Source: Clostridia bacterium (lineage in GTDB: Bacteria > Bacillota > Clostridia > Oscillospirales > CAG-382). Taken from it: 36,177 bases of DNA. The stretch is from assembly GCA_017434845.1 (NCBI GenBank), contig JAFSGD010000038.1, forward strand, positions 1 to 36,177, in the 5' to 3' direction. How positions within the stretch are numbered: position 1 is the stretch's first letter; each line of letters opens with the position of its first letter. The notes below the pieces were generated by a model. That model was given only the letters and a program-made list of their open reading frames with translations, was not told the DNA's origin and searched no databases. Both the position numbers and the translations under genes were made by a program. Shown one piece after another: positions 6,665 through 36,177 of this stretch.

Positions 6665-6835
6665 TGCTCTCAATCACGCCGTAAGGCGTGTATATCATCC
6701 GCAACTTGTAGCGGTATATCATCAATGCGAAGCATTGTATATCATTAAGCCGCAGGAGGTGTTATACACGGCTTTGCCGTGATGATATACCATCGCCCGT
6801 CGGGGCTGATGATATACCAAGCCTGCGGCTTGGAT
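6665..6835 (-). repeat. Hairpin cluster with TATATCATC/GATGATATA linkers
   Basis: A row of short perfect hairpins, for example CACGCCttacGGCGTG, CAATGCttcGCATTG, CACGGcaaaGCCGTG and CCAAGCCgcaGGCTTGG, is separated by linkers of 8-11 nt. On the minus strand the linkers read TATATCATC in the first half and GATGATATAC in the second half, so the two halves can also pair with each other. No coding potential is seen. It follows the terminator-like hairpin at 6836-6877 in the tRNA-Ala direction. Same design as the GATGAAATC elements but with another linker. Confidence 0.8.
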
Positions 6836-6877
6836 AAAAAAAGAAGTAACCTTTGTTTACAAAAGTTACTTCTTTTC
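6836..6877. terminator. Long A/T-flanked hairpin (terminator-like) between repeat units
   Basis: AAAAGAAGTAAC (6840-6851) pairs perfectly with GTTACTTCTTTT (6866-6877). An A-run precedes it, so each strand shows a stem followed by T's. It is the counterpart of the hairpin at 34375-34416 downstream of tRNA-Gln. Confidence 0.7.
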
Positions 6878-7113
6878 TGTCTATGAACTATGAAAAAGAT
6901 ATTTTTGCTGTTTTTGCGTATGAATTCGAACTCTTACAGAAAATGAAATCCTTGCTCACGCAAGGATGAAATCAGCTAACGCTGATGAAATCTTCGGCTT
7001 TGCCTCAGATGAAATTAAATCCACCCATCCGCCGTCGAGGCGGATTTCACCCAACGAAGTTGGATTTCATCGTCGAAGAAGATTTCACCCACCCGCAAGG
7101 GTGGATTTAGTTG
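6878..7113 (-). repeat. tRNA-linked hairpin element, copy A (GATGAAATC linkers) with conserved core
   Basis: On the minus strand this reads from the tRNA-Ala terminator outward. Outer arms AAATCCACC/GGTGGATTT (7018-7026 with 7101-7109) enclose several hairpins, including CCAACttcGTTGG and CCGCCtcgacGGCGG. Further hairpins joined by GATTTCATC follow, then a core (about 6878-6950) that is nearly identical to one at about 34301-34374. Linkers are GATGAAATC on one side and its complement on the other. It is not a gene-sized coding region. Confidence 0.85.
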
Positions 7114-7114
7114 A

Positions 7115-7148
7115 AAACGACAGATTCCTGTCGGAATCTGTCGTTTTC
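7115..7148 (-). terminator. tRNA-Ala terminator
   Basis: A perfect 15-bp stem (7115-7129 with 7134-7148) with a 4-base loop starts directly after the tRNA CCA end. Arms begin and end in AAAA/TTTT. Its AAACGACA/TGTCGTTT core is shared with the tRNA-Gln terminator. Confidence 0.85.
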
Positions 7149-7224
7149 TGGTGGAGCATAGGGGATTCGAACCCCTGACCCCAACACTGCCAGTGTTGTG
7201 CGCTCCCAGCTGCGCTAATGCCCC
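7149..7224 (-). tRNA. tRNA-Ala (anticodon GGC)
   Basis: Folds as a full cloverleaf on the minus strand. The acceptor GGGGCAT pairs with ATGCTCC with one G-U, the anticodon stem is CAACA/TGTTG with loop CTGGCAG (anticodon GGC), and the T arm is AGGGG-TTCGAAT-CCCCT. Discriminator A and an encoded CCA end the gene. Its own promoter lies a few bases upstream and a terminator immediately follows. Confidence 0.97.
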
Positions 7225-34032: not shown

Positions 34033-34106
34033 TGCGGAATTGTGTAACGGCAGCACGGCAGACTCTGACTCTGTTTGTTGGGGTTCGAATCCCTATTCCG
34101 CAGCCA
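34033..34106 (+). tRNA. tRNA-Gln (anticodon CTG)
   Basis: A full cloverleaf. Acceptor TGCGGAA pairs with TTCCGCA, the D stem is GTG/CAC, the anticodon stem GCAGA/TCTGT has one G-U and loop CTCTGAC (anticodon CTG), and the T arm contains TTCGAAT. Discriminator G and encoded CCA follow. A promoter lies about 37 bases upstream and a perfect hairpin terminator follows. Confidence 0.95.
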
Positions 34107-34107
34107 G

Positions 34108-34139
34108 AAAAAACGACAAGTTTCGACTTGTCGTTTTTT
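34108..34139 (+). terminator. tRNA-Gln terminator
   Basis: A perfect 14-bp stem (34108-34121 with 34126-34139) closed by a TTCG tetraloop, arms ending in AAAAAA/TTTTTT. Its AAACGACA/TGTCGTTT core matches the tRNA-Ala terminator. Confidence 0.92.
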
Positions 34140-34140
34140 C

Positions 34141-34374
34141 AATTAAATCCGCCTCCTGCGGAATAAATCCACCTGTGGTGGATGAAATCGCTTTGCGATG
34201 AAATCTGCCTCACGGCAGAAGATGGGCGGATTTGATTTCATCTGAAGCCGAAGGCGGAAGATTTCATCAGCGTTAGCTGATTTCTCCCTTGCATCAGCAA
34301 GGATTTCATTTATGCGAGAGTTCGAATTCATACGCAAAACTGCCGAAAATATCTTTTTTGTAGCCCATAGACAG
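34141..34374 (+). repeat. tRNA-linked hairpin element, copy B (GATGAAATC linkers) with conserved core
   Basis: Outer arms AAATCCGCC (34145-34153) and GGCGGATTT (34225-34233) enclose four hairpins: CCGCctcctGCGG, ATCCACCtgtGGTGGAT, ATCGCtttGCGAT and TCTGCCtcacGGCAGA, joined by GATGAAATC. A second row with GATTTCATC linkers follows (ATCAGCgttaGCTGAT, CCTTGcatcaGCAAGG). It ends in the core (about 34301-34374) shared with 6878-6950. The orientation relative to the tRNA is the same as in copy A. Confidence 0.87.
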
Positions 34375-34416
34375 AAAAAGCACACATTTGTCTACCAAGA
34401 CAAGTGTGTGCTTTTT
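34375..34416. terminator. Long A/T-flanked hairpin (terminator-like) between repeat units
   Basis: AAAAAGCACACA plus TTGTCT pairs with AGACAA plus TGTGTGCTTTTT (34375-34393 with 34398-34416), one mismatch, loop ACCA. T's extend to 34418 on plus and A's precede it. It occupies the same place as 6836-6877 in copy A. Confidence 0.8.
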
Positions 34417-34600
34417 TTCAACTAAATCCGTCCTTGCGGACGGGATAAATCCCACTAATGTGGGATGAAATCACTTCGTGATGAAATCCGACTTCGTCGG
34501 GATAATGAGGACGGATTTAATTTCATCTGAGGCGTTGCGCCGAAGATTTCATCCGAACGAAGTGAGGATTTCATCGTGCGTAGCACGATTTCATTAAACA
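34417..34600 (+). repeat. Hairpin element, third copy (GATGAAATC linkers)
   Basis: Outer arms AAATCCGTCC (34424-34433) and GGACGGATTT (34509-34518) enclose GTCCttgcGGAC, ATCCCACtaatGTGGGAT, ATCACttcGTGAT and a further CCGACttcGTCGG. A right part follows with GATTTCATC linkers and CGTGCgtaGCACG. It begins with TTTTCAACTAAATCC, as the other copies begin after their terminators, but lacks the core. Confidence 0.85.
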
Positions 34601-34676: not shown

Positions 34677-36011
34677 ATGGTCAAAAAACAAGCGTCAAGC
34701 ATCATTAAAAAATACAAAGCCTTTCAATACTCAACGTCAATGTTGATTTTTTTGGCTTGTATTGCGATAGCTTTTACGAATAATACCGTTTACAGTGCTA
34801 TCGCTTTGGTCGTTGCACTCTTTCTTTTGAGGTTTTCTTCCTCCTTTTATTTCCGAAAATTCATCCTTTCGTCTTTATTGGATAAGCTCGATGCACCGCT
34901 TTATAACGAGCTTGCCAAAGAATGCAAGCTATTTCACGAATCGGCGATATATCAGCTTCAGGGCGAATATTCCCTCGGCAATTATCAAAACGTTGTAAGT
35001 ATCTGCGAGCAACAACTTAAAAAGGAAAAAATCGGAAAGCAATTCCGTTTTCTTTACCTCAGCTATCTTGCCGGGATCTATTTTGACACCGACAACAAAG
35101 AAAAGCTTAAAGAAATCTGTTTCCGCTTCAATCTGGCGCTTGCATCCGAGAGCAACAAAGACAAGATCCTTAAAAGGCATCCGAGAATGGCGATCTACAC
35201 CGAGCTTCTCGATGGCGTTTGCAATATTCCGAGCCGCCCCGAAAAGCTCACCGACAGCGCCAAGATCAGCCGCGATTTTTTGGATGCGCGGATTTATCTT
35301 ATGAGAGGCGAAACCGATGAAGCAAAGCGCCGCTTCGAAAAGATAATCAACGATGCGCCAAAGCTTAATTATGCCAAACTCGCCGCACACGCGCTTGAAG
35401 CAATAGAGAACGGCGTTGACTACGGCGAAGGGCTCGAGCCGATCGTTGTTACCGAAGAATATGCAATACCAAAAGAAACGAAAGCTCAGAAATTCTTCAG
35501 AAAAACCAGACCTGCTTTTCGTATTTTTGCGGTTGTTATAGTTATCTCATGCATTGTCATCTATTTTATCGACAGCAAAGAACGCACCGAATACGAAGCC
35601 TATCTCGAAGAGGTTAGGGTGATGGTTGAAAAAGACCGCGACGGCGTTGAAGTGCTGACCGCATTTAATTTAGAAATCAGCGGTGAAACGGCAGATTCAA
35701 TGTTCATTTGCACCGCCGAAGACAGGCTTATCGTTGCCAGCTCGTTTTCTTACACGGGCGAAGACGATACTATGTTTTACGAAACGAAGGTCGATATTCC
35801 CATTTCGGCGCTTGACGGTTTGGAGGAACCGCTGATCTGCGATACCTTCAACTGCAGTACAACCTATTTTTCTGTTGAATCATGCTTTTTCAAAGACAAA
35901 AAGGATATGCCGTTGTTCGTGCATTTAACCGAATTTGAGGTTAACGGAAGCACCGTTTATTTTGCGGTAACGGAAATTAACGTAATACAAGGAACTCAAG
36001 CAGAAATATAA
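34677..36011 (+). CDS. Orphan membrane protein (444 aa) with helical repeat-like region, unknown
   Basis: I do not recognise this protein. Two membrane segments lie near the N-terminus (about 18-34 and 36-54) and a third at about 281-299. Between them is a cytosolic helical region (about 65-260) with TPR-like character (YQLQGEYSLGNYQNVVSICE; YLMRGETDEAKRRFEKIIND). The C-terminal part after the third helix is acidic and probably outside. AGGTGGG is six bases before the ATG. It has its own promoter and sits between repeat elements. Codon use in the first 60 codons is more AT-rich than neighbouring genes. Function unknown. Confidence 0.82.
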   Translation: MVKKQASSIIKKYKAFQYSTSMLIFLACIAIAFTNNTVYSAIALVVALFLLRFSSSFYFRKFILSSLLDKLDAPLYNELAKECKLFHESAIYQLQGEYSLGNYQNVVSICEQQLKKEKIGKQFRFLYLSYLAGIYFDTDNKEKLKEICFRFNLALASESNKDKILKRHPRMAIYTELLDGVCNIPSRPEKLTDSAKISRDFLDARIYLMRGETDEAKRRFEKIINDAPKLNYAKLAAHALEAIENGVDYGEGLEPIVVTEEYAIPKETKAQKFFRKTRPAFRIFAVVIVISCIVIYFIDSKERTEYEAYLEEVRVMVEKDRDGVEVLTAFNLEISGETADSMFICTAEDRLIVASSFSYTGEDDTMFYETKVDIPISALDGLEEPLICDTFNCSTTYFSVESCFFKDKKDMPLFVHLTEFEVNGSTVYFAVTEINVIQGTQAEI

Positions 36012-36019
36012 AAATAAAA

Positions 36020-36063
36020 AAGCCCGAACGGGCTTAGCGTGTTATCCTTAACGGAGAACACGC
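36020..36063 (+). terminator. Two hairpins after the 444-aa gene
   Basis: AGCCCgaacGGGCT-type stem (36020-36035) and GCGTGTT/AACACGC stem (36037-36043 with 36057-36063). Neither is followed by a T-run, so termination is uncertain. The second lies directly before another repeat copy. Confidence 0.4.
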
Positions 36064-36177
36064 AGTCAAATCCGTCTTCGACGGGTGAAATCCACCTCTG
36101 GTGGATGAAATCGCGTTTGCGATGAAATCCTGCTTCGCAGGGTTGTATTTAGACGGATTTGATTTCATCCGAGGACT
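36064..36177 (+). repeat. Hairpin element, fourth copy, cut by window end
   Basis: Outer arms AAATCCGTCT (36068-36077) and AGACGGATTT (36151-36160) enclose CCGTCttcGACGG, ATCCACCtctGGTGGAT, ATCGCgtttGCGAT and CCTGCttcGCAGG with GATGAAATC linkers. It is followed by GATTTCATCCGAGG, the start of the right half. The element continues past the window. Confidence 0.85.

Follow-up and report, generated by a model that had tools for sequence, protein, structure and literature searches.

The window, the whole 36,177-nt stretch of DNA analysed here, carries four copies of a hairpin-rich repeat, and our reading of the sequence bears out the places, outer stems, linkers and hairpins that a first-pass annotation had given for them. 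A tRNA-Gln (CTG) gene on the plus strand (34033–34106; ARAGORN and Rfam) ends in CCA and is the target of unit 1, which starts directly after the CCA with a terminator-like hairpin that we term P0 (GAAAAAACGACAAG...CTTGTCGTTTTTTC, 34107–34140, from sequence and fold). The left half follows at 34141–34233, where an outer stem of AAATCCGCC (34145–34153) and GGCGGATTT (34225–34233) surrounds hairpins joined by the linker GATGAAATC. The right half (34234–34309) consists of three hairpins with linkers of the GATTTCATC type, the hairpins between linkers being near-perfect throughout, and a tail ending in CATAGACA (34310–34373, located by its pattern) closes the unit. Unit 2 stands in tandem with unit 1 and has its own P0 (GAAAAAGCACACATTTG...CAAGTGTGTGCTTTTTTTC, 34374–34419), a left half with the outer stem AAATCCGTCC/GGACGGATTT (34420–34518) and a right half (34519–34594) after which there is no tail.

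On the minus strand, unit A follows a tRNA-Ala (GGC) gene found by ARAGORN at 7149–7224, its target, with a P0 directly after the CCA (GAAAACGACAGATTCC...GGAATCTGTCGTTTTC, 7113–7148), a left half (7018–7112), a right half (6941–7017) and a tail, located by the same pattern and again ending in CATAGACA (6878–6940). The unit, running from the P0 hairpin that adjoins the tRNA (from 34107 on plus and 7148 on minus) to the end of the tail (34373 and 6878, respectively), is larger than the element first described, the copies themselves lying where they had been placed. The single design proposed for all four copies holds for their pairing and not for their type, because the fourth is a different, terminator-type copy. 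It opens on the plus strand with a terminal hairpin (GCGTGTTATCCTTAACGGAGAACACGC, 36037–36063), recognised from sequence and by a terminal-sequence search, and continues into a left half and the start of a right half (36064–36177), where the contig end cuts it. A copy with an identical start is found where contig C33 of the same genome (G000) begins, with a different flank before it.

The window holds other features of note. A second hairpin array with the linkers GATGATATACC/GGTATATCATC occupies 6700–6877 on the minus strand directly behind the tail of unit A, a terminator-like hairpin ending in TTTTTTTATCC standing between the two, and arrays of this family also lie behind a tRNA-Gln in G004. 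Rfam places a THF riboswitch at 2209–2311 on the minus strand (80.7 bits). The gene at 34677–36011 encodes 444 aa with no Pfam match. We considered it as cargo of the element and rejected this, since its one homologue in the 23 other genomes of the genus (G007, 31% identity) directly neighbours cinA, immediately after which it lies, and the gene looks native.

Identity with Gut-1 and genomic distribution

The left half of each of the four copies matches the Rfam family Gut-1 (RF01706) over the full length of its covariance model (positions 1–77), so the supposition that no named family has this design does not stand as far as the sequence is concerned. The scores are 73.9 bits for unit A (7039–7113, minus) and 53.2 bits for the terminator-type copy (36063–36133, plus), and these two of the four reach the gathering score of 50; units 2 and 1 fall just below it, at 48.7 bits (34419–34492) and 40.1 bits (34140–34209). 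The right halves of units 2, 1 and A match the same model on the opposite strand, with 36.6 (minus), 33.7 (minus) and 42.2 bits (plus), respectively.

Searching with this model, as a check on whether copies occur elsewhere, returned many. In the source genome, left and right halves together give 51 matches at E ≤ 0.01, of which 9 exceed the gathering score. When its 59 relatives are added, 45 of the 60 genomes show a match at E ≤ 0.001, and in 37 the gathering score is exceeded, making this a repeat spread through the genomes of this group of gut Clostridia. One of 14 control genomes has a match, below the gathering score, and in a phylum-wide sample of 149 genomes there are two with matches, one of which is the source genome. 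Among GTDB genomes, 102 stretches contain an exact 30-base pattern, and the 80 of them that were listed belong to uncultured Clostridia, Oscillospiraceae and similar MAGs, many of them titled goat, sheep, deer, buffalo or yak gut. A blastn search with the 292-bp unit gave no match in phages or plasmids (E 1e-5), and one 29-base pattern had no exact match in the viral contigs of IMG/VR. Many contigs of the source genome (C5, C7, C27, C33, C51, C52, C54, C55, C57, C77 and the window) end in or near these elements, as expected of near-identical repeats.

Our literature search on Gut-1 found Weinberg 2010 alone, the accession RF01706 yielding no other paper, and the papers listed include none on comparable elements behind tRNA genes. 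The available text of that original paper describes Gut-1 as a short noncoding RNA of human gut sequence and does not state the nature or genomic placement of the element, and a 2021 survey of RNAs in the human microbiome (PMC8040213) does not name Gut-1 in the portion of its main text available. Here, in contrast, Gut-1 is one half of a DNA unit of 270–400 bp, and it is found also in MAGs whose titles refer to the guts of the animals named above.

Unit architecture and insertion sites

The noncoding unit is composed of a terminator-like hairpin, an array of hairpins with one linker, a second array with the complementary linker and a tail. It is 292 bp long in two species (G013 and G005) and ranges from 270 to 400 bp. 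A run of three equal linkers and then two in reverse complement is present 289 times in 1.28 Mb of loci, most of which were chosen for Gut-1, as against once after dinucleotide shuffling. By eye, six linker families were noted, and in every one the linkers of one half are complementary to those of the other, in agreement with the first-pass observation that the whole element can form one large nested palindrome. The same architecture recurs with other linkers, GTGATGC/GCATCAC, ATGATGC/GCATCAT and GCTAAAT/ATTTAGC, again complementary by eye between halves each time (L303 in G022, L323 in G021 and L335 on contig C40 of G000). In one copy of the source genome (L063, contig C41), two hairpins present in L057 are missing exactly between linkers, which by eye looks like a trace of recombination or slippage at the linkers.

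P0 has the form GAAAA...TTTTC and begins at the base after the CCA. With one preceding base allowed, GAAA follows the CCA of 96 of 101 tRNAs with Gut-1 and 4 of 102 without, one of the four being a Gut-1 variant overlooked by the pattern; a single CCA-less tRNA is excluded from these counts. Identical P0 variants recur behind different tRNAs and in different species, indicating that P0 travels with the element. A terminator scan flagged no P0 in the window (units 1, 2 and A) because the T run of P0 pairs with its A run, and P0 presumably acts as a terminator nonetheless. At the other end, the right half is followed by a conserved tail. Of 19 distinct tails, 16 end in CATAGACA or CATAGCCA; the pattern used to find them demanded a final CA. 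What lies downstream of the tail differs between copies and is often, by eye, a terminator hairpin, or else a further unit.

One pair of genomes provides an empty site. In G013, the CCA of a tRNA-Gly is followed by a 292-bp unit and then by AAAGGAAAAG; in G007, the CCA of the tRNA-Gly is followed directly by AAAGGAAAAA. The joined flanks of G013 align without a break to G007 at 90.5% identity over 137 nt, and the unit therefore sits, as a clean insertion, between the CCA and the native terminator. Upstream of the gene, the flank of G013 gives no alignment to G007, only the tRNA itself aligning. In G005, the flank on the upstream side can be aligned to G007 over 321 nt at 77%, and there too a 292-bp unit is present, followed by a different terminator. 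At this single empty site any target duplication is no longer than CA, and by eye the tRNA-type units have no inverted repeat of sequence.

Placement with respect to tRNA and tmRNA genes has one orientation. From the 150 matches listed in the 60-genome search we examined the flanks of 96, in loci mostly chosen for holding Gut-1: a tRNA or tmRNA ends at most 60 nt upstream on the same strand in 44, none has one on the opposite strand or within 120 nt downstream, 50 do not adjoin a tRNA and 2 have too little flank. The 81 pattern-selected sites in the 80 listed GTDB loci behave alike, 44 being tRNA-adjacent, 14 having a tRNA 61–600 nt upstream, 19 having none and 4 having too little flank. Some non-adjacent sites are preceded by a copy of a tRNA 3′ end. 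In 19 comparisons the upstream tRNA was in view: its last 24 bases are matched at 16–24 positions in 16 of them and not matched in 3. A further 21 have no such tRNA in view, and two of the 19, sites in G059, recur among these with shorter flanks. In the source genome, where 30 tRNAs were found, a tRNA adjoins 5 of the 30 best Gut-1 matches.

At 30 tmRNA loci, three of which have hardly any sequence behind the gene, Gut-1 lies directly after the CCA in two (G055 and G057) and behind a copied 3′ end in one (G028). In G059 (L330, contig C21, 1–9500), the tmRNA 3′ end is copied 2.0 and 6.4 kb downstream of the tmRNA, a Gut-1 unit stands behind both copies, and genes for a GDSL lipase and a DUF5677 protein lie between, giving island-like layers at the tmRNA; Pfam identified no integrase in the ten ORFs scanned in L330 and L331.

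Copies of the second site class, the terminator type, begin with a hairpin lacking a T run, such as GCGTGATACTCTTAACGGAG. Two of them in the source genome (L057 and L062; 396 and 398 bp) have inverted ends of about 20 bp (GCGTGATACTCTTAACGGAG ... CTCCGTTAAGGATAACACGC); a search allowing at most 4 mismatches in 17 located an inverted right end for 3 of 20 starts, several of them with short flanks. The left flank is often an A run and a GC-rich arm, with a matching arm and a T-rich tract at the far end, which places the element within the loop of an intrinsic terminator. Exact arms of 8–12 nt with a T-rich tract surround 5 of the 16 starts with enough flank, compared with 1 of 16 when flanks are swapped (a 7-nt arm); the rule for starts admitted at least two of the tRNA type (L104 and L024), and these are among the 11 starts without a matching right arm, as is L057, in which the arms agree by eye except at one position. 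The terminal sequence of this type is present in 16 of 60 genomes, and a reversed-pattern control matched once each in 3.

A few copies carry genes. A 1,128-bp copy in G008, one of the five with exact arms, lies within a terminator loop and holds a 212-aa ORF with no Pfam match, and a 1,174-bp copy in G047, for which no matching right arm was seen, holds a HAD-type hydrolase. We considered these copies of about 1.15 kb with terminal repeats as autonomous transposons and set this aside, as Pfam identifies no transposase in them. A pair of terminal repeats 3.1 kb apart in G034 encloses a 753-aa ORF.

Stem pairing and loop classes

The sequence from 34107 to 34385 folds, as DNA, with z = −8.6, none of 200 shuffles being as good, and a second unit folded with DNA parameters gave z = −8.5. 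The first-pass annotation had noted that stems vary between copies while pairing is kept, and this is confirmed by exchanging arms between copies of the same slot and length (slots L2, L3, R5, R6 and R7): outer stem positions are Watson–Crick in 0.79–0.91 of cases, compared with 0.50–0.57 with swapped arms, a value lowered by skipping swaps that recreate an existing hairpin. Under a strict rule, 313 of 349 distinct segments from 152 distinct elements form hairpins, 221 of them perfect, compared with 23% of trials for shuffled left-half segments and 29% for shuffled right-half ones.

The stems are almost strictly Watson–Crick. Of 1,905 pairs in these hairpins, 1,759 are Watson–Crick, 19 G-T, 19 A-C, 77 G-A, 15 C-T and 16 other, so the covariation including G-U that is expected of an RNA failed to appear. 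In the stems of 81 tRNAs from the same loci, 132 of 1,749 pairs are G-T (7.5%), as counted with a tool that marks only standard pairs and G-T. Because the hairpins are related by descent, neither these pair counts nor the loop counts below are independent events.

The loops differ between the halves in a strand-tied manner. Among tri- and tetraloops, the form C(GN(N)A)G accounts for 94 of 153 in the right half and TN(N)C for 1, about a third of the right-half loops not being GN(N)A; in the left half, C(TN(N)C)G accounts for 46 of 61 and GN(N)A for none. A further 73 right-half and 47 left-half segments have no stem of 4 under the strict rule of this census. The C(GN(N)A)G mini-hairpins are thus on the bottom strand in the left half and on the top strand in the right half. 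Loops of GNA and GNNA closed by G-C pairs form extraordinarily stable DNA mini-hairpins, according to the portion of a published account available (PMC4686876). In the C-G-closed loops listed, GNRA and GNYA are found 30 and 31 times, respectively, and the GNRA rule of RNA is not followed. The loop class tracks the orientation of the linker in other arrays as well, by 65 to 2 of 92 for ATATCA, 10 to 0 of 15 for ATATCATC and 158 to 2 of 242 for ATTTCA, the last overlapping the main census set; the hairpins with GCATCA and ATTTAGC were too few for a verdict, and GACTCA, meant as a negative control, gave 0 segments. Tandem G-A mismatches share the strand of the GNA loops, with 30 GA-AG and 1 TC-CT in the right half and 0 and 4, respectively, in the left.

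The rarity of G-T pairs, the strand-tied GN(N)A loops and the binding of loop class to linker together favour a fold of single-stranded DNA over one of RNA. The first-pass reading that covariation points to selection on structure, or to a mechanism tied to it, is upheld to this extent, with the amendment that the fold in question seems to be one of DNA and not of RNA. By its appearance, each half is made for folding on a single strand, and that strand is opposite for the two halves; this is what we mean by structural inverted repeats.

Proposed mobility and alternative explanations

From these features we consider it probable that the unit is a mobile DNA element, MITE-like and non-autonomous, and that its two ends form inverted repeats of structure and not of sequence, each half being an array of linkers and DNA mini-hairpins. 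A recombinase or transposase encoded elsewhere would recognise the folded single strands by their structure, leaving the stem sequences free to drift in pairs, and the terminator-like P0 at the 5′ end would let the element land right after a tRNA with transcription of the tRNA unspoiled. Our searches found no mobilising enzyme. The earlier comparison to REP or MITE elements is apt as regards behaviour: like MITEs, the element is short, noncoding and multicopy and inserts discretely, with one empty site, and two terminator-type copies (L057 and L062) have the inverted ends of about 20 bp. It differs in that its inverted repeats are mainly structural, with none of sequence seen in the tRNA type, and that its site shows no clear target duplication. 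The classification as MITE-like is one of behaviour, and the element is not a proven member, as neither a clear target duplication nor an autonomous partner was found.

Other known systems share single traits with the element. REP/BIME sequences, mobilised with RAYT proteins, are extragenic palindromes of folded DNA as it is, but the element has arrays of hairpins in place of single REPs. A Y1 transposase (PF01797) is found in 22 of the 60 genomes; among the 10 genomes with at least 25 Gut-1 matches it is found in G008 and G046 and not in the other eight (the source genome G000, G005, G012, G013, G020, G039, G047 and G059), several of which are incomplete drafts. We therefore rejected RAYT/REP as a general explanation, the Y1 transposase not being found in many carriers. 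The ends of IS200/IS605 elements and the attC sites of integrons would resemble the element in being recognised as single-strand folds of variable stem sequence; they differ in that no enzyme was found here and that the element has symmetric halves, placed on opposite strands. Group IIC introns and IS1397 target hairpins or terminators, as the element appears to, but the copies we read contain no intron or transposase gene.

An unlikely alternative follows the original proposal for Gut-1: the array would be a structured noncoding RNA and would lie behind tRNA genes because it is transcribed or processed with them. The Rfam listing, the strong covariation of the stems and the strand-specific tandem G-A mismatches of the right half would all suit such an RNA, but G-T is no commoner than A-C, unlike in tRNA stems, the third base of the GNNA loops shows no purine preference and the GNA loops of the two halves lie on opposite strands. 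Moreover, a terminator-like hairpin stands ahead of the array, and the unit inserts cleanly as a block (G013/G007). It also seems improbable to us that the covariation is purely mutational, with template switching during replication perfecting imperfect hairpins and no structure-dependent step. That mechanism is published, as far as the available part of the source goes (PMC8794818), and accounts for strict Watson–Crick stems without G-T intermediates; it leaves unexplained the loop class that goes with each linker orientation and the insertion sites. Loop inversion, which template switching may also bring about, was seen on stems that occur with several loops in 0 of 35 left-half and 0 of 99 right-half cases, a weak test given that reassigned loops yield just 0.0 and 1.2. 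Template switching may act alongside selection and help to keep the stems perfect.

We give little credence to an integron-like system of gene cassettes, in which the arrays would be attC-like folded recombination sites and single genes the cargo. The gene-bearing copies of G008, in its terminator loop, and G047 and the genes between tmRNA 3′-end copies in G059 speak for it, yet most copies read have no gene between their ends, and the 444-aa gene after unit 2 looks native, its G007 homologue lying directly after cinA. The chance is slighter still that these are host elements that insulate highly transcribed tRNA genes through termination or supercoiling and are spread by gene conversion. REP/BIME elements play such roles, and the one-orientation placement right behind tRNAs would agree with them, but of the 30 tRNAs found in the source genome only 5 have one of the 30 best Gut-1 matches beside them, the terminators of protein genes house the other type, and the empty site is clean.

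Building on the mobile-element reading, we tentatively put forward the possibility of a previously unrecognised DNA mobility system in gut Clostridia. Its enzyme would read arrays of GNA/GNNA mini-hairpins on single-stranded DNA, one array per strand, instead of sequence repeats, and would move empty units or single-gene cassettes into the safe 3′ ends of transcription units, with Gut-1 as a DNA recombination signal. If this is true, an Rfam RNA family is misassigned, and covariation alone is no proof of RNA and can be the signature of folded single-stranded DNA, which counts of G-T against A-C together with loop classes could separate from folded RNA. The element would then stand for an additional class, one that has inverted repeats of structure and selects sites where insertion does no harm, and its sequence would give a handle for finding the enzyme.

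A different element also occurs behind tRNA and tmRNA genes. One of its ends carries the cognate T-arm copied in inverted orientation, and the other a direct repeat of the 3′ end of the cognate tRNA (L088, L335, L336, L340–L342, L346, L347 and L349, and the tmRNA loci L305, L307, L313, L314 and L321), with a core such as GGGCGGGTAGTGAATGACAGTCCGGGGGACTGTCAGAGCCCGCC in several loci, and at least three of these elements stand in tandem behind a tRNA-Ser of G019.
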